A DNA stretch of 64,000 bases from positions 558,001-622,000 of the forward strand of contig AP018040.2 in the NCBI GenBank assembly GCA_002356435.2, read 5' to 3'. Numbering within the stretch: position 1 is the stretch's first letter; each line of letters begins with the position of its first letter. The translations under genes were made by a program, and so were the position numbers. The stretch comes from Petrimonas sp. IBARAKI (lineage in GTDB: Bacteria > Bacteroidota > Bacteroidia > Bacteroidales > Dysgonomonadaceae). Positions 1,864 through 24,439 of this stretch are shown in pieces. Under the pieces are notes generated by a model that made no database searches, was not told where the DNA came from, and saw nothing but the letters and a program-made list of their open reading frames with translations.

Positions 1864-1865
1864 TT

Positions 1866-3197: not shown

Positions 3198-4087
3198 TTC
3201 TGATTAATGACAATTGTTTTCAATTTTGGATAATCACGGAAATACATTAAGGAAGATGTTCCATGATGAGCAATTACAACCTCTTCAAATTTTATCAATA
3301 ATTCATTGATAAATATCTCTATAATGTCAGACCCTTTTAATACATAATCAAAATTATTGAATGTATTGTCAATATCTTTTTTTATGTGAGGATGAGGCTT
3401 TATAATTTTTGTGTAATCTGAATACTCGCTTAATAAATCGTCAATATGCAGGAAAATACTCCAAGAGGTTAGGTATAAGAATACTTTTTTATTTTTTATT
3501 TCACTAAGAATCTTCCGTGTCCCTTGATCTAAAAAAATGCTTTTATCTTGAAATGATTTTAAATGTTCTGAAAAGGAAACCTTAAATTCATATATTGGTT
3601 TTCGAGAATTTGGATGAGCATTTTTAAATCGGTCTTTATCATACAAATAAATTCCTTTAACGTATTTAGAACCGCCTAGATAATTTTTATTTCCAAAAAG
3701 ATTGTAAAAAAACTCTTTAAGTGTCCCGGTCCATCCTTTCTCTTTTAGTTTATTCCTATAATTTCCTATTCCTTCTTCATAAATGAATATATCGATACAG
3801 CGTATTTGACTTAATATTTTGTATTTTGTTGCACCATAATCACTATCTATAAAAAGCCTGCTAATTTTTTTTTTATTATTCAACACCCATTTATATGCAT
3901 CTTCTGTTGTTTCAAAGAAAAATACCTTGTTCCAATGTAAAGATTCTCTTTTTATTGCTTCAAAAACGCTCTGTGCATGATAAAAATTATTAACAAGTAA
4001 ACACGTCTTACTTCCAATGGTATTAATATTCGTCGCATTAAAATATTGCAACGGCTTGGAAATTATAAAAACGTTATTCTTCTTCAT
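3194..4087 (-). CDS. Polysialyltransferase-like glycosyltransferase (candidate Pse transferase)
   Basis: 297 residues, no signal peptide. Three motifs recall the bacterial polysialyl/sialyltransferase-type GT-B group: IYEEGIGNYRNKL around 130, the KPHPHIK basic motif around 233, and HHGTSSLMYF around 275 (compare the KPHP and SS motifs of GT52/PF07388-like enzymes). These motifs bind CMP-activated nonulosonic acids in characterised relatives. Because the locus makes CMP-Pse, this is the best candidate in the window for the Pse transferase. That link is inference from motif and context. Its length is short for the family, and the donor could be a different nucleotide sugar. It follows the sialidase-like lipoprotein gene by 22 nt and overlaps wzy by 4 nt. 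Confidence 0.6.
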   Translation of the reverse strand: MKKNNVFIISKPLQYFNATNINTIGSKTCLLVNNFYHAQSVFEAIKRESLHWNKVFFFETTEDAYKWVLNNKKKISRLFIDSDYGATKYKILSQIRCIDIFIYEEGIGNYRNKLKEKGWTGTLKEFFYNLFGNKNYLGGSKYVKGIYLYDKDRFKNAHPNSRKPIYEFKVSFSEHLKSFQDKSIFLDQGTRKILSEIKNKKVFLYLTSWSIFLHIDDLLSEYSDYTKIIKPHPHIKKDIDNTFNNFDYVLKGSDIIEIFINELLIKFEEVVIAHHGTSSLMYFRDYPKLKTIVINQK

Positions 4088-4109
4088 GATTCAACATACA
4101 GTATACTCT

Positions 4110-5234
4110 CTACTTAACGGGTAAGCCTTTTAAATTAACTCTTGAAAATTTAATACTAAATCCACGATCTTTAATTCCTGTATAATAGGCAAGATATAAT
4201 ATATCTTCTTCAAGAAACATTCCACAATAACCTGTTTCATTAAAGCCTCCAGGTAGACTCCCAATTTGAGTCAAAGTATTCGAGTTTAACGAGTAACTGT
4301 ATAGCTTGGGCTGTCCGTTTATTCTACCGGTTATTAATAATTTATCTTTGTATATAAGGAAGTTAGGGCCTCCCATACTAACCCAAGGAAAATCAATAAA
4401 AGTCCATTGAGTCATATCTGAAACTGAAGACTTCCCAAGGAGAGCCCCTTCTCCCTCTCTTCTTATAAGTGCATAAACAGTATCGTTGTCAAACCGCAAG
4501 GTCGTTTCGGATGCTCTTCCCTGAATATTCTCAAAACGAAATTGTTCATTAAAATCAGTTCCGTTATTACTTATAAAAAGTTTTAATGGTTCTCCACCAC
4601 GATAAGCTATTGTATATACCTTATTGTTATGTTCAGTTAACCTCCAAAACCAAGATTTTTCATTGGTGTTTTTATTTATTTTAATTGCTTTTCCCCATCT
4701 GTTATTTTCTAAATCGTATTTAGCAATGTAGTCATTTCTAGACTCCGCATATGGATTTATTGTTGCAGAATGAAAATGGATGCATAATACACTATCTTTA
4801 ATGAACAGTTTAGGATCTCGTAAATCATAATTGTTTTGCGTATAAATTTGCTCAGATTCCCACCTTTCAAGATTCTCACTCTTTGCTATGATAATGTGCC
4901 CAAAATTAGTTGCCACGTGTCCATCAGAGAATCTGAAAGCAACATACCAAGCACCATTGTATTTAATCAAATCAGTAAATGCTAAATGATGTTTTGAATT
5001 AATAATTTCACGGGTTTCAATAGAATTATCTGCACTTTTCAAGATAGTATTGGAATAGCTTATAAAAGAGTTAATAGAGTCATTTAATGCAGAATTAAAT
5101 ACCGGAGGTATAATTATTTTTTGATTATTAACAGGACTATTTGCCGGAGTAGGTATATCCACTAAGCAACTTTCAAATAATAAAGCACAAAGGGCAAACA
5201 GCGTTAGGATTATTCTGCTTTTCTTTCTATTCAT
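4110..5234 (-). CDS. Sialidase/glycosidase-like beta-propeller lipoprotein
   Basis: 374 residues. The N-terminus is a lipoprotein signal (ALLFESC, lipidated Cys near residue 22), placing the protein on the cell surface or in the periplasm. The rest reads as repeated beta-propeller blades: NFGHIIIAKSENLERWES, YDLRDPKLF, GRASETTLRF, SVSDMTQWTF and NETGYCGMFLEE. The S-x-D-x-x-x-W patterns resemble degenerate Asp boxes, and RDPKLF resembles the DP motif of five-bladed glycosidases. A sialidase-like (BNR) or GH43/GH32-like fold both fit; I cannot assign catalytic residues. A promoter-like box sits about 75 nt upstream and a 233-nt gap separates it from the previous gene, so it may head its own sub-operon (this gene to the beta-helix gene). 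Confidence 0.5.
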   Translation of the reverse strand: MNRKKSRIILTLFALCALLFESCLVDIPTPANSPVNNQKIIIPPVFNSALNDSINSFISYSNTILKSADNSIETREIINSKHHLAFTDLIKYNGAWYVAFRFSDGHVATNFGHIIIAKSENLERWESEQIYTQNNYDLRDPKLFIKDSVLCIHFHSATINPYAESRNDYIAKYDLENNRWGKAIKINKNTNEKSWFWRLTEHNNKVYTIAYRGGEPLKLFISNNGTDFNEQFRFENIQGRASETTLRFDNDTVYALIRREGEGALLGKSSVSDMTQWTFIDFPWVSMGGPNFLIYKDKLLITGRINGQPKLYSYSLNSNTLTQIGSLPGGFNETGYCGMFLEEDILYLAYYTGIKDRGFSIKFSRVNLKGLPVK

Positions 5235-5307
5235 ATATTTAAAAAATGGGTTTTTGATTATTTATTGTGTGATATTTTTATTATTGCAAATCTTTAAAAA
5301 TTAATGA

Positions 5308-5342
5308 CAAATATATAACAAAAGGCAATATGAAAAAACAAA
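5308..5342 (-). promoter_or_regulatory. Putative internal promoter (Bacteroidetes type)
   Basis: On the minus strand TATATTTG (5315 to 5308) fits the -7 element TAnnTTTG, and TTTG (5342 to 5339) fits the -33 element with a 23-nt spacer, slightly long. It lies in the widest gap of the polysaccharide series (5235-5467, very AT-rich, no gene seen) and would drive the lipoprotein, polysialyltransferase-like, wzy, GT4 and beta-helix genes. AT-rich sequence gives chance matches, so this is tentative. Confidence 0.35.
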
Positions 5343-5467
5343 TTACATGATTGAAAAACACAAATTAGTATGTTCATCAAAAACGGAAGTAGCATTGAAA
5401 ATGAGAAAACATGAAATAAAATGACACTAAATTCGTTTTTTGAGCTAATGTTATTTGGTAATAATTG

Positions 5468-6589
5468 CTACACTTCGTTGAATTGTCTTTTCCCTATAAC
5501 AAGATAGTGAGTGGAAGGAGTCGTATGAGTAGTTTTCAAAACCTCTTCCGTAAATTCACGGAAAGCCGGTCCTGCAGCAGATTGGCTTAACTCGGTTCGA
5601 GCATTCCATTCTATAAAGACCGGTTCTCCATCTGTACCAACTGCAATATCCCATCCGGCAAGGTTGAAGTATGGTAGTTGTAAGTGCATTTCCTTAACTA
5701 TTTCTACTACCTTTTCATAAGAGGGAATCTGATAGCCTTCCACTATAATTCCGGTATCTGTTTCCTCTAAAAGTCCTTCTGACGGAGGAGCTATGAGATA
5801 TTTTGCCAAACGTCCGTCATTGTTAATCTTAGTTGTTACACCTCCGCTCGACTCGTTATCAATGATTTTTCCTTTTCTTCCAATTCTAACAACAGCGTAA
5901 AGTAACTCAATAGCGTTTTCCCTTCTGTAAGTGAGCAATCTAATTGTATTTACAGAAGTGGGGTTAAGAGCAGCCATCTTCTCGTGCTGTTTTATTCTTT
6001 CCTGCACAATAAAGTGCTTGCCATAAGAGTTGAATAGTTCCTCAATACTTTTGCCATTATCCAGCACTCCATTTCTAGCGTTTAAAGCATTTACTTTGGA
6101 GCCATGAATACTTTCGAGTGCCGGTTTAATAATTGCATTATCAAGATTATTACATAACTGAATTGCTTCATTTTTGGAGATTGGAATATTTTTATGGTAA
6201 TAATAGCCGTTTGTGCATTTTATGATTGCTTTGGGGTGTTTAATTTGAGGGAAAAGACGGTCGTATTGATTTTTATCGGTATAAGCGTCTGCAACACGTA
6301 AATCATTAAGCCTTCCAACAAGATGAGCCTTATAGAAACTGCTGGGAACATATTTGGGCGAAAATATTCCATTACGGGAATAAAAAAAGCTATGATAAGT
6401 AAGATCTATCTTAAGTCCGACATTTTTACGATAGAAGTCTTGTACCTCTTTCTTTTGCTGTGGTGTTAGTTGTCGCTTACACCATTTCACGTTGTTTTTT
6501 TTGAAATTTCTTTCAGTAAATTTTTCAAATTTTTTCACATGAATGTAAAGCAGAATATCTTTTATTCTTTCGACTATTTTAGTGAGCAT
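5468..6589 (-). CDS. Sugar-transfer-associated ATP-grasp protein (copy 1)
   Basis: 373 residues, cytosolic. The C-terminal two thirds match the ATP-grasp family linked to surface sugar metabolism (PF14397 type): nucleotide/metal-binding strands NPTSVNTIRLLTY, then VRIGRKGKIIDNESSGG, then GWDIAVG ... PVFIEWNAR with the Glu and Asn that bind Mg-ATP. ATP-grasp enzymes activate a carboxylate as acyl-phosphate and pass it to an amine or thiol, so the expected reaction is amide (or peptide) bond formation on a sugar or its precursor. Substrates are unknown. Two homologues sit in the same locus (7849-9003 and 13467-14531), sharing the SxNTxR, RxGRxG/DN..GG and GWDI..E.N motifs. It follows capA after a 97-nt AT-rich gap. 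Confidence 0.8.
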   Translation of the reverse strand: MLTKIVERIKDILLYIHVKKFEKFTERNFKKNNVKWCKRQLTPQQKKEVQDFYRKNVGLKIDLTYHSFFYSRNGIFSPKYVPSSFYKAHLVGRLNDLRVADAYTDKNQYDRLFPQIKHPKAIIKCTNGYYYHKNIPISKNEAIQLCNNLDNAIIKPALESIHGSKVNALNARNGVLDNGKSIEELFNSYGKHFIVQERIKQHEKMAALNPTSVNTIRLLTYRRENAIELLYAVVRIGRKGKIIDNESSGGVTTKINNDGRLAKYLIAPPSEGLLEETDTGIIVEGYQIPSYEKVVEIVKEMHLQLPYFNLAGWDIAVGTDGEPVFIEWNARTELSQSAAGPAFREFTEEVLKTTHTTPSTHYLVIGKRQFNEV

Positions 6590-6686
6590 AACTTTATATA
6601 TTGAAGTTAATTTAAGCTATAATTATGTAATAATGCTGATTTTTCTTACGAACTTTTTTTAAAAAAATAGTAAACAAACTTAATTA

Positions 6687-7856
6687 TTAATCGTTTTCCA
6701 AAATTCTTAATAAGGCTTGTCTTCTGGTATCATTTTTTATCAGATTGTAAATTCGTTTATCGTTAATTGTTTTAGGTTGTTTGTTTATTATTTTAGGTAG
6801 ATAAGCAATTTGTTTCAGGAAAGATTTTAAAATACTTCTTAAGGGGATGTTCTTATAGTAGAATTCGTACGCAGAGTGTAAAATATTTAAGTTTTCAATT
6901 TTCACTAATTTATCTAATGCTGAATTTAAATATCTTTCATATTCTGTATAATCAATTAAATACTGAGAGATGGCCTTGTTATGTTGTTTTATATAATCAC
7001 TATTGTCAATCGTAATTTTAAGGTTATTTTCATTCTTAGTATTGTAAACATCAAAACCAATAGTGTTATTTTCAATTTTTAAAACTGTGCATAAACCTTC
7101 ATACCAGTGGGGTCTGTTCCAAGCTCTGTAATCAGGTGTTTTCTTGGAGTTAAAGAAAAAGTTTCCTAAGCTATAAAAAATAGGTTTATTCTTATAAAGC
7201 TCCCAACCCTGGGGACAATGGGGATGCGTACCAATAACGGCATCTGCTCCATAATCAATAAAATCTCTATATCTTGCAATTGTTTCTGGTAAAGGAACAT
7301 CTATGTATTCAATTCCATCGTGAGGTAAAATAAACAAATAGTCTATTTCTTTCTTAGCCTTCAAAATAATATGATTTACGCTTAAATCGTTTATGAAAGC
7401 ACAACCTAACTCTTCTTTGTTAGATACATCACTAAAAACACCACGTTTGGCGGCGTAACAAAGTGCCAAGAAGCCCAATTTTATACCTCTAATGTTTACT
7501 GTTTTCACGCGATATGCTTCATCATAATATCCTGAGCCGAACAGACTTTCTGGATTACTAAAAGCACTTAGAGTTTTCATGTAGCCGGCTTCCCCGTAGT
7601 CGAACACATGATTGCTTGCAAAAGAGAATAAGTTAAAGCCTATTTTTTCAAGAAAAGCTGGTGCATCGGCATTTTGAAAGAAAGCATCTTCTTTTTCCGG
7701 TAGATTATCAGGCTTAAGTGGAACTTCAAAGTTACAGATTCTTAAGTCACAAGAATTTATTAAATTCTTCAAGTCCTCTGAAACTTCTATTACTGAAGTC
7801 GATGGTTTCGAACAGAAATCACCACAGAAAAACAAACTCACCGCGTGATTATTCAT
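6687..7856 (-). CDS. CapA family metallophosphatase-like protein
   Basis: 389 residues. It belongs to the CapA/PgsA (PGA_cap) family, named for the poly-gamma-glutamate capsule protein and built on the calcineurin-like metallophosphatase fold. Metal-binding motifs are in order: GD (12-13), NFE (42-44), SNHVFDYG (81-88), HD (179-180) and GTHPHC (209-214). There is no signal peptide or N-terminal membrane helix, unlike Bacillus CapA, so it probably works in the cytoplasm. Its start overlaps the end of ATP-grasp copy 2 by 8 nt, which argues for coupled translation and joint function. In poly-glutamate systems CapA works with an ATP-dependent ligase. Here the partner may be the ATP-grasp protein, but that is inference. 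The exact reaction is unknown. Confidence 0.8.
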   Translation of the reverse strand: MNNHAVSLFFCGDFCSKPSTSVIEVSEDLKNLINSCDLRICNFEVPLKPDNLPEKEDAFFQNADAPAFLEKIGFNLFSFASNHVFDYGEAGYMKTLSAFSNPESLFGSGYYDEAYRVKTVNIRGIKLGFLALCYAAKRGVFSDVSNKEELGCAFINDLSVNHIILKAKKEIDYLFILPHDGIEYIDVPLPETIARYRDFIDYGADAVIGTHPHCPQGWELYKNKPIFYSLGNFFFNSKKTPDYRAWNRPHWYEGLCTVLKIENNTIGFDVYNTKNENNLKITIDNSDYIKQHNKAISQYLIDYTEYERYLNSALDKLVKIENLNILHSAYEFYYKNIPLRSILKSFLKQIAYLPKIINKQPKTINDKRIYNLIKNDTRRQALLRILEND

Positions 7857-9003
7857 ATTTTATTATCTTTTCCAATTTCTGATTATTAAGTAGGTTCTCT
7901 GCTCTTACAAATGGATATTTTATTCCGGTCTCCATCCATGCAAAATAGCAATCCCTAATCTCTCTTCTCCATCCTTTTCTGATAAAATACTGTCCTGTTC
8001 TATCCCACATATCGTTTACTTCTATAACAAGGGGACCGGCTTCCGTTATTGCAATATCCCATCCGGCAGCCTTAACCCAGGGAAATGATTTCTGAAAACA
8101 TAATACTTGCTTTTTTATGTCCTTCCAATTATCAATTACAACACCATCGATTGGGTTTCCATTGTCAGGATGATGAATGATATCTTTTATCTGTTTCCAA
8201 CCATCAAATTGAATTGTATGTTTTAATTTACCCGTTTCAATATCGATACAGGCATCTACATTACCGCCACTGCCGGCGTTATCAACACATCGTCCTTTTC
8301 TTCCAATTTTAATAAAAGTTGCAATTATCTTAGCTTCACCGTCAGGAAACAGAGTTGTCATAAAACGAACAGTATTAACTGAAGATTCATTGAAAGATGC
8401 TAATTGTTTTGTTTGATAAATTAAGCTTTCGAAGATTAAAGGGACATCCGACAGGTAATCGGATAGATTAATTTTTTCGCCGTTAAACAGATGTAATGTA
8501 CAGTCATTATTTTCATATGTAATATTGTTGATTACCAGTACGTTTTTTCCTGTTGAGCTTTCTGTGGTTTTAATAACGCATTTAAATACCTTTTTGGTTT
8601 TTAATATCTTAATAACTCCCTGAAGATTGTTGGCTATCTCGCTGCTTTGTAAAACATCACCTTCGGGATGGTAGTAACAATAGAGTTCAGATTTTCTAAC
8701 TCCGGTATCTTCCAATAATTTATGTGTCAAGTATTTATTTCTGGCAATAATATAGTATTTCTTAGGATTTAGAAAATCCAGGTAATACCTTTGTTCATTC
8801 ACTCCTAAAAAAGAATTCCTGAATTCGGTATCCCGTTTATCCAGTTCAAACTGGAAATACTCTTCTGTTGTTATTCCTTTTTGCTTGTACAGTTTCCAAA
8901 AATCAAAAAGAATAAATACCACATTTCTTGATGAATAAGTGGATATTTTTTTAATTTCCTTGAAAAACCTGAAGGTCTGTCCTATTTTTTTTCTTATTGT
9001 CAT
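7849..9003 (-). CDS. Sugar-transfer-associated ATP-grasp protein (copy 2)
   Basis: 384 residues. It has the same ATP-grasp core as copy 1: ESSVNTVRFMTTL, IKIGRKGRCVDNAGSGG, then GWDIAITEAGPLVIEVND, the last supplying the Mg-ATP Glu/Asn/Asp ligands. A Lys-rich segment before these (KCVIKTTESSTGKNV) looks like the ATP-binding loop. The N-terminal ~100 residues differ from the other two copies and may select the acceptor. It sits 4 nt after the hexapeptide acyltransferase and overlaps capA by 8 nt. Predicted chemistry is carboxylate-amine ligation; substrates are not determinable from sequence. The three copies differ clearly from each other, so this is not a recent tandem duplication. Confidence 0.8.
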   Translation of the reverse strand: MTIRKKIGQTFRFFKEIKKISTYSSRNVVFILFDFWKLYKQKGITTEEYFQFELDKRDTEFRNSFLGVNEQRYYLDFLNPKKYYIIARNKYLTHKLLEDTGVRKSELYCYYHPEGDVLQSSEIANNLQGVIKILKTKKVFKCVIKTTESSTGKNVLVINNITYENNDCTLHLFNGEKINLSDYLSDVPLIFESLIYQTKQLASFNESSVNTVRFMTTLFPDGEAKIIATFIKIGRKGRCVDNAGSGGNVDACIDIETGKLKHTIQFDGWKQIKDIIHHPDNGNPIDGVVIDNWKDIKKQVLCFQKSFPWVKAAGWDIAITEAGPLVIEVNDMWDRTGQYFIRKGWRREIRDCYFAWMETGIKYPFVRAENLLNNQKLEKIIKYE

Positions 9004-9007
9004 TTTT

Positions 9008-9754
9008 TTATAAATGAGTTCTTACATAGTTGTGTTTTTTATCTAATTCCTTCTGCTCTTTGTTATCAAAAATGCGTCTGATATTTTGCTGTTTTAATTT
9101 TGCCGGTAAACCTGCAATTAAACAATTTTCTCCGATAGAAGTAAAATCTTTATTGACCAAGCTATTGGACGCAACAATGGTATAATCAGGTAAAATTGCT
9201 CCTTTCGAAATAGTTGTTCGATTACCTATCCAGACGTTATTACCTATCACTATCGGTTTGGTTAGAGGTTTTATTTCTCCATCCAATAAATTTTCTACAT
9301 AGTGGAAACTCGTATCCATTATCTGACAATCCCAGCTAATTCGGCAAGTATTTCCAATAACTATTTTTTCAAAGCACATTATCCTAATGTTTGCCCCAAT
9401 AATAGCTTCTTTACTTCCAAAACTTAAAGTGGCGTTATTTGATACCAATATATACGACCCTTGTAAAAAATTAATCGGTCCATTAAAGTTAATCGTCCCA
9501 TTAATTGTCCAAATACATTTAGGAACAGCGGTTTCTACGTAATAATCTCTCTTCCCTATTTTTATCATTCCGGGATATACGGCAGAATTTATATTGATTT
9601 CTCCTTTTAAGCTTCTAAAAACAATTTTCCCATATATAAATATAGGCAATTTAATTGCTTGCTTGAAGGGTAGAATCTTGAAATTTAAATAAATAGTTTT
9701 TATGAGATTAGTTTTTGAAACTCCATCTACAATCTTAAGTAATTTTCTCAACAT
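9008..9754 (-). CDS. Left-handed beta-helix (hexapeptide) acyltransferase
   Basis: 248 residues. The C-terminal half is a hexapeptide-repeat LbH domain of the WcaF/maltose-acetyltransferase-like kind: IGNTCRISWDCQIMDTSFHYV, PIVIGNNVWIGNRTTISKGAILPDYTIVASNS, ending with the AGLPAKLKQ element typical of these enzymes. The His within the DTSFHY segment is the likely catalytic base. Members transfer acetyl (sometimes other acyl) groups from a thioester to a sugar hydroxyl or amine. In this locus it may O- or N-acylate a repeat-unit sugar, possibly Pse, although the N-acetylation needed to make Pse itself is provided by pseH. It lies 7 nt after wzx and 4 nt before ATP-grasp copy 2. Confidence 0.85.
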   Translation of the reverse strand: MLRKLLKIVDGVSKTNLIKTIYLNFKILPFKQAIKLPIFIYGKIVFRSLKGEININSAVYPGMIKIGKRDYYVETAVPKCIWTINGTINFNGPINFLQGSYILVSNNATLSFGSKEAIIGANIRIMCFEKIVIGNTCRISWDCQIMDTSFHYVENLLDGEIKPLTKPIVIGNNVWIGNRTTISKGAILPDYTIVASNSLVNKDFTSIGENCLIAGLPAKLKQQNIRRIFDNKEQKELDKKHNYVRTHL

Positions 9755-9761
9755 ATTGGAA

Positions 9762-11222
9762 TTATTTTTTTCTTTTCATTAAAAATTCAACGACCACTTC
9801 CTGGTACGTCATAAAGCCCTCCAACTTGAGAATGTAGGAAACAGAAAGGTATGAGAACGCATATACCGTTATTTGCAAAAGTATTTGAGCCAAGTTGCTA
9901 AGTTCAATATTAATGAATGAAAAAGCGCAATAAGTGATTACACCAGCTATTATTGCAAGCAAGTAGTATATTCCCGCATCCTTTACTTGCCTCCAGACTC
10001 CATAACCAATTAATTTACCAGAAACATATCCATTTATAAAAAAGGATATATAGTACACAGCTACTATGCTCCATAACATAGCTTCTATACCATATCTGAT
10101 ACTGAAAATTATGAGCATTATACCTAATAATCTTTTAAAAAACTGAACCACAAAATATATGTTACTTTTACCCAGGGACTTTATCACGTTAGTATTTATT
10201 GTGTTCACTGTATAAAGCATTGCACCCACGCAAAGAATCTGAAAATAGGGTATTGAAGCTTCCCATTTTTGTGTGTACAAAAAAAGGAATAATGGACGGG
10301 CTATTATTAATAGTAATACCATTAAAGGGAAATTCAAAAAAGTAATAGCTTTTATGTTTTTCCGAACTCCTATTAAAAGCAATTCTTTGTTATTTTGTAT
10401 TTTGGAGAAGACGGGGAAAGAAACTTGATTAACTATTGATGATAAGGCAGAAGTGGGTACTTCTTCTAGTCTTCGAGCTTGAGTGTAAAACCCTAATGAC
10501 TTAGCTGAAAAAGCTTTACCTATTATCAGGCCCTGTATGTTGGTATAAATTGTTTCTACGAGAGCAGACAACAACATTAGGCTTCCAAAGCCAAACAGTT
10601 TCTTTAAAGATTGAAAGCTAAATTCTAATGTCGGTCTCCATCTACTCATATTCCACAACAAAATCACATTAACCACTCCACTAATTAAAGAAGAGTAAAC
10701 CAAACTCCAAACTCCAAACTTATTGTATGCCATTACAATGGCAGCTATTGTTCCAACAAAAGATGCAATAATACTTCTTACAGATAACTCTTTAAATCGT
10801 AGTTTTTTCTGAAGCTGTGTTGTTTGTACAATAGAAAATGAGCTGATTATGAGCCCAATACTCTGTACACGCAAGATGTCTTTCAACATCGGCATTTTAT
10901 AGAAATCTGCAATGCTTTGGGCTGTGAAAAATAATAGTACAACAAAAAATACAGAAAACACCAAATTCCAATAAAATACAGTTGTATAGTCTATATGCGT
11001 TGTCTCCTTTTTTTGTATCAAAGCTGAACCTAATCCTCCACTAATAAAAACTTGTGATATGGCTAAAAAGATATATAACATTCCAATATATCCGAAATCA
11101 CTTGGCATCAATAATCTAGCCAGCACAAGATTGGAGATAAAGGTAATTCCGAGTGTGCCGAATTTCCCGATGCTGCTCCAAACCATTCCCGATATAGTTT
11201 GTTGTTTTAAAGACTTTGACAT
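9762..11222 (-). CDS. wzx: Polysaccharide flippase (Wzx, MOP superfamily)
   Basis: 486 residues with about 12-14 predicted membrane helices. It belongs to the PST/WzxC-like branch of the MOP flippases: the opening SKSLKQQTISGMVWSSIGKFG and the ARLLMPSDFGYIGM segment are typical. It would translocate the undecaprenyl-diphosphate-linked repeat unit from cytoplasm to periplasm, before Wzy polymerisation. The ATG overlaps the stop codon of the upstream saccharopine-dehydrogenase-like gene by one base (TAATG), so the two are translationally coupled. Symbol given by function, not by close orthology. Confidence 0.85.
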   Translation of the reverse strand: MSKSLKQQTISGMVWSSIGKFGTLGITFISNLVLARLLMPSDFGYIGMLYIFLAISQVFISGGLGSALIQKKETTHIDYTTVFYWNLVFSVFFVVLLFFTAQSIADFYKMPMLKDILRVQSIGLIISSFSIVQTTQLQKKLRFKELSVRSIIASFVGTIAAIVMAYNKFGVWSLVYSSLISGVVNVILLWNMSRWRPTLEFSFQSLKKLFGFGSLMLLSALVETIYTNIQGLIIGKAFSAKSLGFYTQARRLEEVPTSALSSIVNQVSFPVFSKIQNNKELLLIGVRKNIKAITFLNFPLMVLLLIIARPLFLFLYTQKWEASIPYFQILCVGAMLYTVNTINTNVIKSLGKSNIYFVVQFFKRLLGIMLIIFSIRYGIEAMLWSIVAVYYISFFINGYVSGKLIGYGVWRQVKDAGIYYLLAIIAGVITYCAFSFINIELSNLAQILLQITVYAFSYLSVSYILKLEGFMTYQEVVVEFLMKRKK

Positions 11223-12439
11223 TATTTTTCAGAGTAATCTTTTAGGTAAGAGAATTTATCAGTTAATTTACCCTGTTTTAAAATAGTCGCTTTTTTAATT
11301 ATTTTATTATTGTTGATATCTTTGCTGAGTATGCTGTTTAAAACGTGTTCTGTTAGAGCTTCTCCAAAATACTTGCTTGTATCAAGGGCGAGTGCATTTG
11401 GCAGTGTATCTACTGCCATTACTGTAATATGAGTTGGTGAAGAAAAAGCAGTTTCCTCTTTCATAGTTACAGGGTTATAGTCGTAAAAGGGAGCGTTATG
11501 CGTTGAAGCCCTTACAGTAGATTTGATGCTGCCTAAAATATCACAAGTAACGTCTCCTATCACGGAGATATTCATATCGGCTTTTTTTAGTTCCTCTTCC
11601 GTGAGATACACGGGGTCTTCATTTCTCCAAAAATGGCATGGAATAAAAACGTCTGTGACTTGAGCATACTTGTAAAAATCGCTGATATATAGCTCCGGAT
11701 ATGTTTTGAAATGAGCATGGTCAAAATCAGCTTCTCTGTTATCAATACGTTTTACTAAAGTATCAAGATAGGCAACAGTATAAACTTTCTGATTGGAAAA
11801 ATCATTTGTCAAAAAGTCAAAATTACTAACGTTGTTAAAGCCAATCTTGTCCAACAGATATTGTGCGCCTTGAGAAGAACGGCCTTTGCCTGTAATAACT
11901 ATTTTACAATTATAATTCTGATTTTTTTTTGTAACTTTCAGTAATTTATCTAAAGTAAACCTTTTATCCGGTTTAGGTAGGTTAAATAAATTATTTTTCA
12001 AGCCATAAGCCCTCAATGTATTATATGCGCCAACTACACCAGCCCACCAACCGAAAGCGCACAATCTGTGGTTATTATCATCAACCAAATACTCATAGTC
12101 GGAAAAAGTAATCTTTAACTCCATCATTTTTTTAATCAATGGCCTATTGTAAGGTTGCATTTTGGCAATATGTCCAAAGAAAAAATAATGTTTTTCGGGT
12201 AAGAGTGTGCTAATGTCGGCCTCTTTAATTCCAAAAAGTATATCGCAGTCGGAAACGTCGTCTCTTACGTCAATTCCCTTATCGGCATACTCTTGGTCGT
12301 GATAGACACGAATACCGCTACTTTGTACAACAAACTCGGCATTGCTGAATTTGGACTTAAGAGCGACTATTTGTTCGGGAGATAGAGCCACTCGGTTGTC
12401 TTCGGGAACTTTGGTCTCTTTTATAATTCCTATTTTCAT
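11222..12439 (-). CDS. Saccharopine dehydrogenase-like (Lys1/AlaDH-PNT fold) oxidoreductase
   Basis: 405 residues. The N-terminal AlaDH/PNT domain begins KIGIIKETKVPEDNRVALSP, and the overall pattern follows NAD+ L-lysine-forming saccharopine dehydrogenase (Lys1): FGHIAKMQ, YEYLVDDNNHRLCAFGWWAGVVGA, a Rossmann glycine segment (ITGKGRSSQGA) and a C-terminal VMAVDTLPNAL. Lys72 and His90 fall where yeast Lys1 has its acid-base pair Lys77/His96, so the enzyme is probably active. Lys1-type enzymes make or cleave opine-like C-N bonds between an amino acid and a 2-oxoacid. Within a polysaccharide operon it could supply an unusual amino-acid substituent for the ATP-grasp ligases (inference). The alternative is ordinary amino-acid metabolism. 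It begins 23 nt after pseI and overlaps wzx by 1 nt. Confidence 0.7.
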   Translation of the reverse strand: MKIGIIKETKVPEDNRVALSPEQIVALKSKFSNAEFVVQSSGIRVYHDQEYADKGIDVRDDVSDCDILFGIKEADISTLLPEKHYFFFGHIAKMQPYNRPLIKKMMELKITFSDYEYLVDDNNHRLCAFGWWAGVVGAYNTLRAYGLKNNLFNLPKPDKRFTLDKLLKVTKKNQNYNCKIVITGKGRSSQGAQYLLDKIGFNNVSNFDFLTNDFSNQKVYTVAYLDTLVKRIDNREADFDHAHFKTYPELYISDFYKYAQVTDVFIPCHFWRNEDPVYLTEEELKKADMNISVIGDVTCDILGSIKSTVRASTHNAPFYDYNPVTMKEETAFSSPTHITVMAVDTLPNALALDTSKYFGEALTEHVLNSILSKDINNNKIIKKATILKQGKLTDKFSYLKDYSEK

Positions 12440-12462
12440 TTTTCTAGATAATATCCTGGTTT

Positions 12463-13470
12463 TTAATTGAAATCTTCTACTGATAGTTTGTTGCCTTTAG
12501 AAATGTTTTTTATTGCCTTCTTTCCAAGTACCTCATCGTAATACTTCGGATGCAAACCATGGCCCGGCCTCACCGACCGCACGTTTTGTTCCGTAAAAAC
12601 ATCGCCGGTCTGTATGTCTTCCGCCGCGAACAGAGAACGCCGCCGCAAGCGGTTTCTTTCGGTAAGTTCATAACTGGCTACTCCCAATGCGGTATAGGCT
12701 TCCCGTACGGCTTTTGCCATTTCGGCAAATTCATCCGGCTGCATTGAAAACGACGAGTCGATGCCGCCCAAACTTCTATCCAAAATAAAATGTTTCTCGA
12801 TAACTGTCGCGCCCAACGCCACAGCGGCAACAGGGACAGTACTGCCCATGGTGTGGTCCGACAAGCCGACCCGCGCCCCAAAACGCTTTTTCATATCGGG
12901 AATGGTAAGCAGGTTTGCCTTATCGGGCGTTGCCGGATATTCCGATGTGCATTTCAGCAGCGTAACGTCGGTGTTCCCCGCTTTTTTGCAGGTGGCGAGC
13001 GCCAATTCAATATCTCCTATGTCGGCAATCCCGGTTGAAATTATCATCGGTTTTCCTTTTGACGCCGTGTATTCAATTAACGGAATATCGGTAATTTCAA
13101 ACGATGCTATTTTATAGATGGGCACATCAAGCGTTTCTAAAAAATCAACATCCTTCTTTGCAAAGGGAGATGAAAAAAATATCAATCCGTTATCAATTGC
13201 AACCTTTTGGAGTTGCTTATGCCAGGCGTAAGGCAAAGCGCCTTCAGTGTATAGATCGTATAGGGTACGCCCTTTCCACAACCCGTCTTTGCGGGGGCCG
13301 AAAAATTCGTTATCTACATTGAGCGTGAGCGAGTCTGCCGTGAAGGTCTGCACTTTTATAGCATCGGCGCCCGATTGGGCAGCAGCTTCAATTGTTTTAA
13401 TTGCCAGTTCTAAATCGTTGTTATGGTTGGCCGAAAGTTCTGCTATAATAAATAAATCACGATTTATCAT
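12463..13470 (-). CDS. pseI: Pseudaminic acid synthase
   Basis: 335 residues. NeuB-family TIM barrel (about 1-275) followed by a C-terminal SAF/antifreeze-like domain (about 278-335). It condenses 6-deoxy-AltdiNAc with phosphoenolpyruvate to give pseudaminic acid. The opening FIIAELSANHNNDLELA and the segment KVQTFTADSLTL are of the PseI type rather than NeuB or LegI, and all other Pse genes lie beside it. Active-site segments include the SSPF, KIASFE, STGIA and GLSDHTMG strands and EKHF. It overlaps ATP-grasp copy 3 by 4 nt. Oddity: the half encoding residues ~100-335 is about 50-60% GC in several 60-nt lines, against about 20-35% in neighbouring genes, suggesting a different recent origin. 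Confidence 0.92.
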   Translation of the reverse strand: MINRDLFIIAELSANHNNDLELAIKTIEAAAQSGADAIKVQTFTADSLTLNVDNEFFGPRKDGLWKGRTLYDLYTEGALPYAWHKQLQKVAIDNGLIFFSSPFAKKDVDFLETLDVPIYKIASFEITDIPLIEYTASKGKPMIISTGIADIGDIELALATCKKAGNTDVTLLKCTSEYPATPDKANLLTIPDMKKRFGARVGLSDHTMGSTVPVAAVALGATVIEKHFILDRSLGGIDSSFSMQPDEFAEMAKAVREAYTALGVASYELTERNRLRRRSLFAAEDIQTGDVFTEQNVRSVRPGHGLHPKYYDEVLGKKAIKNISKGNKLSVEDFN

Positions 13471-14531
13471 ATTATTTTCTTGGATTTAAAAAAATTATAC
13501 GCTCTTGAATCAGAGAGATAGGGCTTAAACAATTGTACTGTGTAAAGGCCGGGGTTATGATTAGCTTCAATTACCACGAAAGAATCTTCAGTTATCAATA
13601 TATCCCAGCCTATAAAATCCAAAAACGGATTATCTGACATAAATTGCAATATTTTATTTTTTACTTCTTCCCAATGCGGAATGACAATCCCTTCAATTAC
13701 TTCCTGTGTATCAGGATGTTCTCTTCCTTCTTCTATGTTGACTAATCCTGACACGACACGCTTTCTCTTCCATTTTGACACAACTCCAGTTTCATTGTCA
13801 ATTTGAGCTACAAGGCCTCCTCGGGTAAAGTTGTCTAACGGGGCGGAACCGCTCCACCCAATTCTTAGGGATGAATTGAAAATAAAAGGACTCTTCGTTT
13901 CAACATCCTTCAAGGTAATCATTCTTATCGTATTTGTAGTACCTGAAAATATCTTGTTTAGAAGAGAATGTTGTCTGTAATACCTGAAGATCCCATAAAA
14001 GTTACATCCGGATACAAAAGACACCAACTCGGATCGTATTAATGGATTATTCTTGAAATATCGAATACCATTCTCCTCTTTTATAAAGCTTATTCCTTGT
14101 CCTTCTCCTCCTTGTAAAGGTTTTAATACATATTCAAAGCCTGACTGTATGATTCTGTTTAAGTCGTTGCTTTTGTCTTCGACAGGTATTAATTGTCCCT
14201 CATAAATTATAAAATCGAGTTCTGGTGTGGGAAGTTTGTGATTTATATAGTTGTAAAAAATCAATTTGTCATGCATTATGGGCCAGTAACCGGAATTTGT
14301 ACTTAATGTAATCCGATATTTTACTCCATCCGGCAGATAAAGATGATAATTTTTCAGGTTCAAGTTATAAGAAAGAATGCTATCGGAGTCAAAACCTTTG
14401 AACCATAAAAAAACCAAAATAAAAGGATTCTTGAAAAATATGATTCTATGAAAAATATTTTTCAATATGAATTTTTTTAACGGAAAACGTGTTAATTTTA
14501 GTTCCATATCTATCTTTATATCTATTGCCAA
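13467..14531 (-). CDS. Sugar-transfer-associated ATP-grasp protein (copy 3)
   Basis: 354 residues (or 346 from Met9 at 14507). It has the same ATP-grasp family features as copies 1 and 2: a glycine-rich ATP loop KPLQGGEGQGISF, then TTNTIRMITL, a GG strand NFTRGGLVAQIDNETG, and FIGWDILITEDSFVVIEANHNPG with the metal-binding Glu and Asn. It is embedded inside the Pse pathway block, overlapping pseG upstream by 10 nt and pseI downstream by 4 nt. Of the three copies this one is thus most tightly tied to Pse synthesis. Inference: it may add an amino-acid or other carboxylate to an amino group of the Pse precursor or of Pse, giving an N-acyl variant. The donor is unknown. Confidence 0.8.
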   Translation of the reverse strand: MAIDIKIDMELKLTRFPLKKFILKNIFHRIIFFKNPFILVFLWFKGFDSDSILSYNLNLKNYHLYLPDGVKYRITLSTNSGYWPIMHDKLIFYNYINHKLPTPELDFIIYEGQLIPVEDKSNDLNRIIQSGFEYVLKPLQGGEGQGISFIKEENGIRYFKNNPLIRSELVSFVSGCNFYGIFRYYRQHSLLNKIFSGTTNTIRMITLKDVETKSPFIFNSSLRIGWSGSAPLDNFTRGGLVAQIDNETGVVSKWKRKRVVSGLVNIEEGREHPDTQEVIEGIVIPHWEEVKNKILQFMSDNPFLDFIGWDILITEDSFVVIEANHNPGLYTVQLFKPYLSDSRAYNFFKSKKII

Positions 14532-15508
14532 TTAAACTTATGAAGCAAATACCTTACTATTCTTTCGGAAGCCAAACCATCAAGTTTAACACCTAGCGTG
14601 TTGACCATATCACGTATTTGAGGCCTTTTTATCCTGAGTAGGTTTTCTGTGAATTCTTTCTCAAATGCCGGCAGGGGACCTACGGGATCACAAGCCAAAC
14701 AGGCCTTTAAACCTCTCCAAAAGGATATATTATTGAACTGATTCCCGGCTGTAGGAATCGCAATGCTTGGAACTTTTAATAAAATAGCTTCGTTCAGTGA
14801 TTGCCCCCCGTTTAAAACCGCAAAATCAACATCTTTCAACAAAGAAACATACTTTTTCGCATTTACAAAATTCAGGTACTTTACACATTCATTTTGCACT
14901 AATAATTCAACATTACGGATATTTCCTACTATGTATATTTTCAGTCCATTGAAGTTGTGCAAAAGAGCATTGATAATAATATTCAGGATTTGAACATCAG
15001 TAAATCCGCCTAAAGATATTAAAACACTGTTTACATTTTCATTTATTTTTTTTCTTAAAGGAATGTTTGAAATGAACTCTTTTCTAAAAAGCACATATTC
15101 AGGCCCTGCTAAATAATCGAAATATAGATTCTTCTTTGTTTGGAGAAGCTCAAATCCGTAGGCAGAAGGGATAATCACCAACCCTTTTTCCACATAATTT
15201 CTTTGCGAGTCCGAAATAGATATCGGATAAATTACATCCCGGGTTATTATGTTTAATTCATTTTGTTTAACCAAGTATGAGTCAAAAATCAACAATGTTT
15301 TTTCAAGATTGATTTTTTGAATAAACTCAGAAGAATTCCATTCATTTAAAGAATAATCGAAGTTCAATGTCGGAGACAAAGTGCTTCCTCTAATGATAAA
15401 TTCTACGGCAAAATTTTGTTTATAAAGCTCATCTGCCAACGCGCCGCATCTTGCTAAATGTCCAAAACCTATTGATGAGGAATATTCTGTTAAAAAAACT
15501 GCTTTCAT
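14522..15508 (-). CDS. pseG: UDP-2,4-diacetamido-2,4,6-trideoxy-beta-L-altropyranose hydrolase
   Basis: 328 residues, full length for the family. A GT-B-like hydrolase that removes UDP from UDP-6-deoxy-AltdiNAc, the fourth step of Pse synthesis, releasing the free sugar used by PseI. The N-terminal GFGHLARC holds His17, at the same position as the catalytic His17 of Campylobacter jejuni PseG. SLGGFTD and NGGQSLNEAILLKVPSIAIP form the UDP-binding C-terminal lobe. It lies 5 nt after pseH and overlaps ATP-grasp copy 3 by 10 nt. Confidence 0.93.
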   Translation of the reverse strand: MKAVFLTEYSSSIGFGHLARCGALADELYKQNFAVEFIIRGSTLSPTLNFDYSLNEWNSSEFIQKINLEKTLLIFDSYLVKQNELNIITRDVIYPISISDSQRNYVEKGLVIIPSAYGFELLQTKKNLYFDYLAGPEYVLFRKEFISNIPLRKKINENVNSVLISLGGFTDVQILNIIINALLHNFNGLKIYIVGNIRNVELLVQNECVKYLNFVNAKKYVSLLKDVDFAVLNGGQSLNEAILLKVPSIAIPTAGNQFNNISFWRGLKACLACDPVGPLPAFEKEFTENLLRIKRPQIRDMVNTLGVKLDGLASERIVRYLLHKFNWQ

Positions 15509-15513
15509 TGGGC

Positions 15514-16047
15514 CTATTTTGAAGTATTATAAGTTTCCTTGTCCAATGACAGAATAACGTATTCATCATCTTCATCATAAAAGCCAAATCCAAGACGTAG
15601 GTTTGATTCTATTACTTTCTTGTTGATTCGTTTATTTTTGACATAAATAATCGTCTCGTCCAGCACATTGAACCAATAGTCTAAAATAGAATTCTTAGCC
15701 AATAAACCTATTCCTTTACCTCTATATAACTCGTCCCCGATAAGCGCGCCATATTCAGGCATTGTTCCTAAGTTTTTGATATTAAAAACCCCTATTGGGA
15801 TATCCTCTTTTTTCAGAATCAAATCTATCCTATCTAATTTATTGTAATTGTTTAGAAAATCAATTTGATCGTTTAGCGTTAAAACTTTTTGATTATCAAA
15901 GAATTTTAAATTGTTGGGATTATTTCGCCATTTCAAGATAAAATTACTGTGCGAATTGTCTATAACTTCCCAACTAAATCCCTCTATTGAGAGTTGGGAA
16001 AGATTGTGCAAAAAAAACTCTTTCTTGGGATACATTGAAAGACTCAT
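15514..16047 (-). CDS. pseH: UDP-4-amino-4,6-dideoxy-N-acetyl-beta-L-altrosamine N-acetyltransferase
   Basis: 177 residues, GNAT fold. It acetylates the 4-amino group made by PseC using acetyl-CoA, the third step of the pathway. RNNPNNLKFF near the start and the acetyl-CoA pyrophosphate loop region GDELYRGKGIGLLAKNSIL match PseH-type GNATs. The C-terminal NLRLGFGFYDEDDEYV is the usual final strand. The start overlaps the pseF stop codon by 4 nt. GNAT specificity cannot be proven by motif alone, so the assignment leans on its place between pseF and pseG. Confidence 0.88.
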   Translation of the reverse strand: MSLSMYPKKEFFLHNLSQLSIEGFSWEVIDNSHSNFILKWRNNPNNLKFFDNQKVLTLNDQIDFLNNYNKLDRIDLILKKEDIPIGVFNIKNLGTMPEYGALIGDELYRGKGIGLLAKNSILDYWFNVLDETIIYVKNKRINKKVIESNLRLGFGFYDEDDEYVILSLDKETYNTSK

Positions 16048-16721
16048 TCATTCATAAATAACCGGTATTTTGCCTCAGCTAATGCCCAATCAACCTTTGT
16101 ATCAATGTCTTGACAGAGAGCTTCCGATATTTCAACACCATATCTTTCATCCGTTTTAAAGATTGTATCTGGTCTTACCCAATAAAACATACCCGCATCA
16201 TGATAAATAGGCTCTAAATCCTGGGATCTCTCTCTTCTAAACTCCGGGTTAGTGAAACAAATCTTACCATTTTCGGATAACCTAAGTCCACGTTGCACAG
16301 GAAATGAGAATTTTACTATCGGATGTACGTACAATGCTTTTCTTTGGAAAAGAATGTTATAAGTTTCCTTTAGTAAATCCGAAGTAACAAAAGGAGCAGT
16401 CGGCAGAATCAAACAAACAGCATCAAATTGATGATTTTCGTGCGAGTATCTATCTACTACTTCCTCAATAACGTTGGATAATGTTGCAAAATCCCCTGCT
16501 GTTTTCTTACTCCTCATAAAAGGTATGTTCGCCCCATATTGCGCCGCTACGGTGGCAATTTCTTCATCATCAGTAGAAACCATTACCTCTTCGAATAGCT
16601 TGGAATTTAAGGCGGCTTTGATGGAATAGGAAATAATGGGTTTTCCCAAAAAATCTTTTATGTTTTTTCGGGGTATGCGTTTGCTGCCTCCACGGGCGGG
16701 GATGATAGCCAGATTTTTCAT
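16044..16721 (-). CDS. pseF: Pseudaminic acid cytidylyltransferase
   Basis: 225 residues, CMP-NeuA-like nucleotidyltransferase. It activates Pse with CTP to CMP-Pse, the donor used by a transferase. The N-terminal IPARGGSKRIPRKNIKDFLGK is the CTP-binding loop; VMVSTDDEEIA and LILPTAPFV continue the fold; and CQDIDTKVDWALAEAKYR is the PseF-type C-terminus. It overlaps pseC by 4 nt and pseH by 4 nt. Confidence 0.93.
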   Translation of the reverse strand: MKNLAIIPARGGSKRIPRKNIKDFLGKPIISYSIKAALNSKLFEEVMVSTDDEEIATVAAQYGANIPFMRSKKTAGDFATLSNVIEEVVDRYSHENHQFDAVCLILPTAPFVTSDLLKETYNILFQRKALYVHPIVKFSFPVQRGLRLSENGKICFTNPEFRRERSQDLEPIYHDAGMFYWVRPDTIFKTDERYGVEISEALCQDIDTKVDWALAEAKYRLFMNE

Positions 16722-17926
16722 TTGTTATAGAAATTTTCAACCGCTTGTATTACAAGTTGCTGTTCCTCTTCAGTCAGTGTGGGAAACATAGGTAGACTGA
16801 TACAGTTTTCGTAGTAATTCTCTGCACCGGGCATATCGCCTTGTTTCCAGCCGAACTTACGGTAATAGGGCATCAAATGAGCGGGTACATAATGGATTTG
16901 AGCGTAAATTTTGTGTTTACGCAAATACTTGTACAAATTCAACCGATCTTCCGCTTCAATCACATAAAGGTGGTAGGCATGTCCGTCCACAACACCCGAT
17001 TGTCCTTTTATAAAGGCCTTCCCTTCGAATGCGTTGAAATAGTTTTTGGCAATTTCTTTTCTTCTTGCCAAACCCTTTCCGGCTCTTTTCAGTTGGCTTG
17101 TGCCTAATGCCGCTTGAAAATCAGTAATGCGGTAATTATATCCCAATTGCTGCATCTCCATATACCAACCGGGATAGTCTGTTTCGCCGGTGTATCCTCC
17201 GGTAGCCAATTCAATGGAGTTTTCATAGGGGAAAATCTTATTGTCTTTTGTAATTCCGTGTGTCCGCAGCAACAACAGCTTTTTATACAATACTTCGTCG
17301 TTGGTTGTAATCATGCCTCCCTCACCGCAAGCGATATGCTTTACCGGATGAAACGAGAAAATAGCTAAATCGGCAAAGTTGCCATTACCGCATAATTGTT
17401 TCCGTCCAGACACATCCTCAAAATATCCTCCGGGAGCATGGCAGGCATCTTCAATAATCCATAAACCATGTTCATCGGCAAGTTTTCTGAAAGCTTCCAG
17501 ATTTACAGCTCTTCCGGCAAAATCTACGGGAATGATTCCCTTGTAAGTGCCTCTGGGTGAGTTTTCTAGTAATTTTCTTACGGAATTGACATCCAATAAA
17601 TAAGTTTCGGGGTCAATATCTGCAAATACTACTTCACCGCCGCAATAACAAACACAGTTTGCAGATGCCACAAAGGTTATGGGTGTGGTTATCACTTTGT
17701 CGCCAGGCAGCACGTTCAAAGCCATTGCACATAGATGGAGCGCGGCAGTACCATTGGAAACAGCCAAGGCGTATTTACAGCCGATATATTCGGCAAAACT
17801 TTCTTCAAATTCGGCAATCCGTGGACCCTGCGTCAAATAATCTGAAAGAAGGGCTTCGTTCACTGCAGCTATATCATCATCCGTGATGTGTTGACGTCCA
17901 TAGGGTATGGGATGTAGATTTTCCAT
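16718..17926 (-). CDS. pseC: UDP-4-amino-4,6-dideoxy-N-acetyl-beta-L-altrosamine transaminase
   Basis: 402 residues, DegT/DnrJ/EryC1 PLP-dependent aminotransferase. It transfers an amino group from glutamate to the C4 ketone made by PseB. PLP attaches to Lys196 in SFHPVKHIACGEGG. Other family segments are AVSNGTAALHLCAMAL and VDFAGRAVNLEAF. PseC-type length and the short 2-nt spacing after pseB support the specific call over other sugar aminotransferases. Overlaps pseF by 4 nt. Confidence 0.94.
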   Translation of the reverse strand: MENLHPIPYGRQHITDDDIAAVNEALLSDYLTQGPRIAEFEESFAEYIGCKYALAVSNGTAALHLCAMALNVLPGDKVITTPITFVASANCVCYCGGEVVFADIDPETYLLDVNSVRKLLENSPRGTYKGIIPVDFAGRAVNLEAFRKLADEHGLWIIEDACHAPGGYFEDVSGRKQLCGNGNFADLAIFSFHPVKHIACGEGGMITTNDEVLYKKLLLLRTHGITKDNKIFPYENSIELATGGYTGETDYPGWYMEMQQLGYNYRITDFQAALGTSQLKRAGKGLARRKEIAKNYFNAFEGKAFIKGQSGVVDGHAYHLYVIEAEDRLNLYKYLRKHKIYAQIHYVPAHLMPYYRKFGWKQGDMPGAENYYENCISLPMFPTLTEEEQQLVIQAVENFYNK

Positions 17927-17928
17927 CT

Positions 17929-18945
17929 TTATACTTCGAAATTTGGATCAACGTGTTCTTTTATTTTCAAACGGATGCTTTCGATGGTTTCCCACTCGGT
18001 GTTGTCGCCGGAATTATAACTAAATCCTTCGGGAACTTTCTTCGCATTAAAATATGTGATATAGTCTTCCATTTTCCAAACAGGTTTTTGTGGTAGGATG
18101 GTGTAGTACGTTCCTAAATCAAACGTATGGAAAGCGTCGGATGGCGTAATCATCTCTTCGTGTATTTTTTCTCCGGGACGGATGCCGATAACCCGGTGCT
18201 CGCATTCAGGAGCGATGGCTTTGGCCAATTCCATAATCCGGTACGATGGAATTTTGGGAATAAATATCTCACCACCCCACGCGTATTCCAATGCGAACAA
18301 CACCATATCCACACCGCCTTGAATGGGAATGTTGAAACGGGTCATGTGTGGCTCGGTAATGGGAATAACGCCATCTTTTTTCTTTTTTATAAAAAATGGG
18401 ATAACCGAACCGTTTGAGCCCATGACGTTTCCGTAGCGAACCACCGAAAATTTAATAGGGTTGCTTCCCTTGATATTATTGGCGGCTACAAATAATTTAT
18501 CCGATGCCAATTTTGTTGCTCCGTATAAATTGATAGGAGCGCAGGCTTTATCCGTCGACAAAGCGACAACACTTTTCACATTTGTTGCCAAACATGCGTC
18601 AATTACGTTTTGCGCTCCGCCGATATTAGTTTTTACGCACTCGGAGGGATTATACTCTGCAATATGAACATGTTTCATGGCGGCTGCGTGAATCACATAC
18701 TCGATTCCGCTTAATGCACGTGTCAAGCGTTCTTTGTCACGTACATCGCCGACAAAAAAACGTATTTGCGGATACTTGGAATGGGGATATTCCTGATCCA
18801 TGATGAATTGTTTTTGTTCATCACGCGAATAAATGACCAATCGTTTTATATTGGGCCATTTTTTAAAAATGGTTTTGGTCAATGCTTTACCTAAAGAACC
18901 TGTACCTCCCGTTATAAGGATGCTTTTTCCTGTTAAGTCTAACAT
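17929..18945 (-). CDS. pseB: UDP-N-acetylglucosamine 4,6-dehydratase (inverting)
   Basis: 338 residues from ATG 18945. An in-frame upstream ATG at 18972 is rejected because it would lie upstream of or within the promoter. Extended SDR protein: glycine motif ITGGTGSLGK (11-20), then STDK (130-133), Tyr141 and Lys145. Asp132/Lys133/Tyr141 coincide with the catalytic residues of Helicobacter FlaA1/PseB. It converts UDP-GlcNAc to the 4-keto-6-deoxy-L-arabino sugar with C5 inversion, the first committed step to Pse. It is the first gene of the polysaccharide series, with a promoter-like box immediately upstream. Confidence 0.94.
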   Translation of the reverse strand: MLDLTGKSILITGGTGSLGKALTKTIFKKWPNIKRLVIYSRDEQKQFIMDQEYPHSKYPQIRFFVGDVRDKERLTRALSGIEYVIHAAAMKHVHIAEYNPSECVKTNIGGAQNVIDACLATNVKSVVALSTDKACAPINLYGATKLASDKLFVAANNIKGSNPIKFSVVRYGNVMGSNGSVIPFFIKKKKDGVIPITEPHMTRFNIPIQGGVDMVLFALEYAWGGEIFIPKIPSYRIMELAKAIAPECEHRVIGIRPGEKIHEEMITPSDAFHTFDLGTYYTILPQKPVWKMEDYITYFNAKKVPEGFSYNSGDNTEWETIESIRLKIKEHVDPNFEV

Positions 18946-18961
18946 GATAAAAATTTTCTTA

Positions 18962-23254: not shown

Positions 23255-23285
23255 AGAAGTTGCTTTTTTGAGTACATATAACGTG

Positions 23286-24437: not shown

Positions 24438-24439
24438 CA

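Follow-up and report, generated by a model that had tools for sequence, protein, structure and literature searches.

A recurrent gene module with an LKR/Lys1-like dehydrogenase and ATP-grasp ligases in a surface-glycan locus of Petrimonas sp. IBARAKI

Results

The module and its recurrence

The stretch of DNA analysed here, 64,000 nucleotides of contig AP018040.2 of Petrimonas sp. IBARAKI (positions 558,001 to 622,000; hereafter the window), carries at positions 640-18972 a co-directional run of surface-glycan genes on the minus strand. Six of these genes form a portable module. In the direction of transcription they encode an LKR/Lys1-like dehydrogenase of the AlaDH/PNT type that is predicted to form opines (P0001, 11222-12439), a Wzx-type flippase directly after it (9762-11222; PF13440, 1.4e-96), an LbH (hexapeptide) acyltransferase (9008-9754; PF00132, 1.2e-6), ATP-grasp B (P0003, 7849-9003), a CapA-like protein that is a candidate residue epimerase (P0005, 6687-7856; PF09587, 1.2e-43) and ATP-grasp A (P0002, 5468-6589). 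We propose, giving it about an even chance, that such a module would make an opine-type amino acid, link it to a glycan through an amide bond, possibly epimerise it, and export the product; none of the gene names foretells such a decoration. The proposal is built on the genes and their key residues, the recurrence and order of the module, the branch to which its LKR belongs, and the difference in the interior of the locus between two genomes; from these we infer that the glycan bears an opine or amino acid substituent.

The window's exact order of LKR, wzx, LbH, ATP-grasp, CapA and ATP-grasp genes was found again in a locus from another family of the order (L109), with identities to the window of 54, 62, 59, 56, 46 and 50%, respectively. 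A second locus (L118) has the module minus LbH alone, and three others (L101, L105 and L108) hold all six genes with CapA farther down. With profiles built for this analysis, we labelled the same-strand neighbours, up to 10 kb away, of 37 LKR genes from 36 glycan-side loci, the window among them; since there were usually 9-10 kb of downstream sequence, and less in a few cases (6.9 kb for one of the two LKR genes of L106, 0.2-2.1 kb in L034, L110, L120 and L121), the counts are lower bounds. The gene next after LKR was wzx in 27 of the 37, and two more stop at a contig end. PF14397 ATP-grasps were present near 19 LKR genes (a count uncorrected for two PF14397 genes of L057 missed in open reading frame picking), TupA-like ATP-grasps near 20 and either kind near 28, with CapA near 13, LbH near eight (among them L119, a distant relative) and UDP-glucose dehydrogenase near eight. 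In many of these loci two to four PF14397 genes stand together. None of the module families was found in 11 loci of the class-wide LKR type (0/11). The TupA-like ATP-grasp often occurs in addition to PF14397, and the one at L108:7449-8345 was assigned to PF14305 by scan. An apparent fusion of CapA with ATP-grasp A (L112:12021-14237, 738 aa) was rejected as probably a frameshift or sequence error, because shortly ahead of the junction its CapA tail ceases to resemble the relatives; L112 is still counted under both families.

A preliminary description of this DNA had linked the ATP-grasp genes to the Lys1-like one, and the link was borne out, the genes not being scattered: in 104 genomes of a related family, PF14397 genes lay within 10 kb of 19 of the 33 close LKR genes, all on the same strand and 18 of the 19 downstream, with CapA, LbH and wzx in the same set. 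Seen from the ligases, 33 of the 98 PF14397 genes in these genomes were near an LKR. To allow for the fact that LKR and PF14397 are both glycan-locus genes, we took wzx as a control, using 42 places in 68 genomes that hold 13 of the 33 LKR genes and 40 of the 98 PF14397 genes. PF14397 occurred within 10 kb of wzx in seven of nine places with an LKR (within 5 kb) versus eight of 33 places lacking it (Fisher p=0.005, uncorrected for relatedness and broken contigs). Position and this control are preferred here to co-occurrence per genome (31/32 versus 22/72), which is confounded by genus. In the order as a whole, PF14397 was found at E<=1e-10 in 34 of 393 genomes; five genomes of the order (the window's included) have an LKR of at least 50% identity, and PF14397 is present in four of them and replaced by a TupA-like ATP-grasp in the fifth (G678, locus L055).

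The LKR-like enzyme

In sequence searches P0001 matched the LKR (LOR) domain of AASS best (2.9e-31), with yeast Lys1 second (7.9e-9), and profile searches gave 1.5e-52 and 6e-20, respectively. The Lys72/His90 pair is intact, as had been claimed, and so are five further positions aligning with Lys1 active-site residues. These seven positions (R16, K72, E73, H90, K93, E116 and R125), which we take to be catalytic from the roles of the Lys1 residues, are identical in 36/36 glycan and 43/43 class-wide-type LKR proteins. Eight positions separate the two groups (89, 157, 228, 295, 314, 345, 349 and 351; conserved to at least 90% and 85%). At four of them (89, 314, 345 and 351) the human LOR, which uses lysine, has the class-wide residue as judged by eye from the alignment, so that the amine partner of the P0001 branch may not be free lysine. 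The comparison suggests that the glycan branch performs the same chemistry on another partner.

The glycan LKR and the class-wide LKR are separate branches. When 86 rows (83 of them different) were placed in a tree, the 36 glycan LKR sequences clustered at 97/88 and, together with five phage sequences and L061, were set off from the 43 class-wide-type sequences at 100/99. L061, the same gene as tree row L042, came from the 12 control loci and was reassigned to the glycan side on account of its wzx neighbourhood; in the tree its LKR sits with the glycan side, outside the cluster of 36 and on a long branch. Two further phage sequences (L172 and L173) stood outside the tree. LKR homologues at E<=1e-10 are present in 313 of 395 genomes of the class, mostly as a single match, with 37-45% identity among the matches listed. 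In the window's own family, an LKR at E<=1e-40 occurs in one of 101 genomes, the window's itself, and a genome of the same species (G923) is devoid of a P0001-type LKR. Another family of the order has close relatives (52-58% identity, E<=1e-90) in 32 of the 104 genomes searched, and a further one, at 59% identity, was found on a contig of a Chryseobacterium metagenome-assembled genome.

The ATP-grasp ligases and the CapA-like protein

The locus holds a third ATP-grasp gene, ATP-grasp C (P0004, 13467-14531), between pseG and pseI and outside the conserved module. The three genes, whose positions agree with those first given, were confirmed as members of PF14397 (129, 136.3 and 129.4 bits for A, B and C, above the curated cutoff of 31.4 bits), and the 3.69 Mb genome has no other PF14397 match at E<=0.001. 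The motifs said to be common to them (SxNTxR, RxGRxG and GWDI..E.N) hold approximately and not to the letter: P0002 has SVNTIR, RIGRKG, GWDI and IEWN; P0003 misses one of the three, with KIGRKG for RxGRxG (K for R); and P0004 misses two, its TTNTIR and RIGWSG being without the S and the second R. Six residues of P0003 (K145, D241, N242, D316, E328 and N330) are invariant in a four-sequence alignment; judging by their presumed roles, we take them to be the expected ATP-grasp catalytic residues, present in all three ligases. With these residues kept, A, B and C would be carboxylate-amine ligases.

The relatives of ATP-grasp B (seven, at 56-59% identity) and of ATP-grasp A (13, at 41-49%) lie within LKR loci. 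ATP-grasp C is divergent, sharing 30% identity with the closest relative found beyond the window among 395 class genomes, and pse genes were not found beside eight of its relatives (L158-L165) in flanks of about 1.5 kb or less per side. It alone of the three is embedded in the pse operon, and it may be separate from the module. ATP-grasp C as a conserved pse-linked ligase was rejected, since no close relative was found.

P0005 matched MslH (8gq9), an epimerase that acts on a residue of a lasso peptide, in sequence (6.2e-10) and profile (1.6e-13) searches. Its residues E44, N82, H83, D86 and H213, invariant in ten cassette CapA proteins, align with MslH E44, N87, H88, D91 and H295, four of them in a weak stretch, and D13 fits MslH D11 by motif. 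Some of the residues matched to MslH are also common in metallophosphatases. In MslH, mutation of E44, N87, H88, D91 or H295 leads to loss of activity (PMC10406935), and homologues of MslH occur in poly-gamma-glutamate clusters, in a source that also cites peptide epimerisation (PMC9266682). A weak model of P0005 (mean pLDDT 49.5) gave MslH entries as Foldseek ranks 1-4, with E values of 1.5e-11 to 5e-11. Taken together, the alignments and the model make an epimerase role for P0005 plausible.

LKR homologues in phages

Homologues of the LKR with 42-48% identity to P0001 were found on seven IMG/VR contigs (L167-L173). The gene order was the same in 7/7, namely amidoligase, ParB-like, LKR, terminase small and terminase large, contig ends cutting the amidoligase and the large terminase (TerL) in L172 and TerL in L170. 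LKR lies two genes from the amidoligase; this is another setting, unrelated to the first, that places an LKR of the glycan side of the tree close to a family of ATP-dependent C-N ligases. In the two contigs scanned (L167 and L168), the amidoligase gene combined PF12224 with a phage GNAT-like domain. Residues G89, L228, H314 and A349 are common to all seven phage LKR proteins and the glycan branch. A search of 50,697 phage records for a phage LKR gave no match, nor did a viral scan with ATP-grasp B as query. It is possible, and we advance it tentatively at clearly less than an even chance, that saccharopine-type reductases of one hitherto undescribed branch supply an opine block which ATP-dependent amidoligases attach to biopolymers, these being surface glycans in Bacteroidota (by ATP-grasps, with a CapA epimerase) and a phage target in the viral contigs (by the amidoligase-GNAT protein).

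The locus around the module

Two overlaps given in the preliminary description stood, as the last base of the LKR-like gene is the first base of wzx (11222) and ATP-grasp B shares 8 nt with capA. A third depends on the start codon, ATP-grasp C overlapping pseG from its TTG start (14531) but not from the next ATG (codon 9, 14507).

Upstream of the module lie genes for pseudaminic acid (Pse). PseI (12463-13470) scored above the NCBIfam cutoff (TIGR03586, 472 bits versus 340). The precursor genes (14522-18972) start at 14522 (PseG-like), 15514 (PseH-like), 16044 (cytidylyltransferase), 16718 (aminotransferase) and 17929 (dehydratase). PseG (88.9 versus 153.6) and PseH (32.4 versus 93.1) fell below their NCBIfam cutoffs, although the gene order still fits, and the last three were named by Pfam (CTP_transf_3, DegT_DnrJ_EryC1 and Polysacc_synt_2) and by order. 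The module had been linked to pseudaminic acid; this did not hold, since PseI is near one of the 37 LKR genes, that of the window itself. For the same reason Pse was rejected as the common acceptor of the module.

Downstream of the module there follow a lipoprotein-like gene with no Pfam match inside the glycan locus (4110-5234), a gene without a Pfam match (3194-4087), a Wzy-like gene (1866-3197; weak match, below cutoff) and a GT4 glycosyltransferase gene (640-1863). On the other side, a conserved flank on the same strand encodes a Wzz/GNVR protein and a polysaccharide export protein (19560-23320), after which, within 19560-25860, come what we take to be rmlB, rmlC-like and rmlA-like genes, 24440-24985 being named independently of the family-library scan. 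A HipA-family gene lies close to the capsule region (30213-31517). An Rfam scan of positions 1-30000 of the window gave no match.

This flank is kept in the same-species genome G923 (40 kb compared; L180 and L181), with 89% identity for rmlB, 62% for the export protein and 55% for Wzz. Its interior is mostly different, and what is kept there amounts to the gene at 1866-3197 (58%), a Polysacc_synt_2 relative (39%) and part of CapA (41% over 99 residues). The interior genes at 640-12439 have a G+C content of 28-37%, versus 50-57% for the genes at 20882-25860. Both the interior differences and the low G+C fit an exchange of serotype-like cassettes, the stretch being a swappable part of a capsule or exopolysaccharide locus.

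Discussion

Proposed function and alternatives

In the pathway that we propose for the module, the LKR-like enzyme would use NAD(P)H to couple an amino acid, through its amine, with 2-oxoglutarate, yielding a saccharopine-type opine; the eight altered LKR positions point to a pocket that has changed, or to an amine that is not free lysine. ATP-grasps B and A would then convert a carboxylate to its acyl phosphate and couple it by amide bonds, probably two made one after the other, to a sugar of the repeat unit, either an amino sugar or a uronic acid. With less assurance, the CapA-like protein might invert the alpha carbon of the amide-bound residue, as MslH does. Finally, going by their family names, the LbH enzyme would carry out an acylation and Wzx the export. 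ATP-grasp C probably acylates a sugar of the Pse pathway separately.

Several observations weigh against this pathway. ATP-grasps A and B matched PDB sequences at chance level, and the predicted structure of ATP-grasp B was unusable (pLDDT 37). The alignment of P0005 to MslH is strong around H295 alone, the E44-D91 stretch reaching 5.8 bits by sequence or 17.6 bits (i-Evalue 0.013) by profile, and MslH H261 is apparently replaced by G181, in a region (H259/H261) that lies outside the alignments. Two near-identical phage LKR proteins (L169 and L170) have R for the catalytic K72. Inside genus g16, presence and absence gave 24/25 versus 12/15 (p=0.14), which is not significant. Nine of the 37 LKR genes had no ATP-grasp found nearby; four of these loci (L034, L110, L120 and L121) have 0.2-2.1 kb of contig left downstream, in L126 the absence may be a miss of open reading frame picking, and L111, L115, L119, L120 and L121 carry UDP-glucose dehydrogenase. 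Lastly, 65 of the 98 PF14397 genes are away from LKR, so that these ligases also work without it.

Two other readings we hold to be unlikely, to about the same degree. The LKR might act after ligation: once an ATP-grasp had coupled a diamine such as lysine to the sugar, LKR would add 2-oxoglutarate to the free amine; or it might work directly on an amino sugar. The kept catalytic residues combined with eight differing positions, four of them class-wide in human LOR, would suit an unusual amine partner of this kind, but no structure places the altered positions in the amine pocket, and the usual substrates of LKR homologues are free amino acids. Alternatively, the ATP-grasps might attach ordinary amino acids, with LKR merely supplying or draining lysine or glutamate locally, or hitch-hiking beside wzx. 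The many PF14397 genes away from LKR, and those near eight of the 33 LKR-less wzx genes, speak for this; yet wzx follows LKR in 27 of 37 cases, the LKR forms a branch of its own with changed positions, and in the phages same-side LKR genes stand two genes from an amidoligase. Less probable still is a short polyamide or peptide built on the glycan, like teichuronopeptide or poly-gamma-glutamate, in place of a single substituent. In its favour, PF14397 genes occur in groups of two to four in many loci, and TupA-like ATP-grasps and CapA are near 20 and 13 of the 37 LKR genes; against it, a scan of 20 locus genes gave no match to TupA, and neither these nor ten flanking genes matched CapB or CapC.

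Relation to known systems

The three ligases belong to the sugar-transfer associated ATP-grasp family (PF14397), whose name already implies a sugar-locus setting. What differs here is that an LKR branch, CapA, LbH and wzx repeatedly accompany the ligases, and that one locus holds three divergent copies. Iyer et al. are said to have probably foreseen ATP-grasps in polysaccharide loci in 2009. With LKR (AASS LOR) and yeast Lys1, P0001 shares the fold family and the seven catalytic positions; unlike them, it belongs to a separate branch, has eight changed positions, and is set in glycan loci or phages. P0005 may resemble MslH and the CapA of poly-gamma-glutamate loci in a calcineurin-like fold (in a weak model) and in five key residues by alignment (four of them in a weak stretch) plus D13 by motif, but it apparently lacks H261, and its partner is an ATP-grasp and not CapB or a lasso cyclase. 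The CapB/PgsB and CapC of poly-gamma-glutamate synthesis had no Pfam match in the 20 locus genes and ten flanking genes.

Teichuronopeptide systems, to which TupA is linked, likewise have an ATP-grasp ligase in a glycan locus, and TupA-like genes are near 20 of the 37 related LKR genes; the LKR is the enzyme added here, and PF14305 (TupA-like) had no match among the 20 locus genes scanned in the window. The O-antigens of Proteus and Providencia carry amide-linked amino acids or N-(1-carboxyethyl)lysine and are thus of the predicted kind of product, except that their opines derive from pyruvate, whereas 2-oxoglutarate, the substrate of the LKR/Lys1 family, would be used here. Passages of PMC2824669 and PMC4431377 name teichuronopeptide, and the latter describes linked ligases acting in series, with O-antigen among the products. 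In a study of phage infection, an ATP-grasp protein linked to the PVR9 locus of Bacteroides intestinalis is reported to differ in abundance (PMC12118408). Searches of open-licence full texts, a scope outside which most subscription journals lie, found no paper that places LKR-type genes in such a glycan setting.

If the proposed pathway is true, the names saccharopine dehydrogenase and ATP-grasp, when met together in capsule loci, would predict a charged opine-type amino acid on the surface glycan. The module would also offer a defined set of genes for testing the PF14397 ligases and the idea that CapA epimerises a residue. For the bacterium, such a decoration could alter phage adsorption and host recognition.

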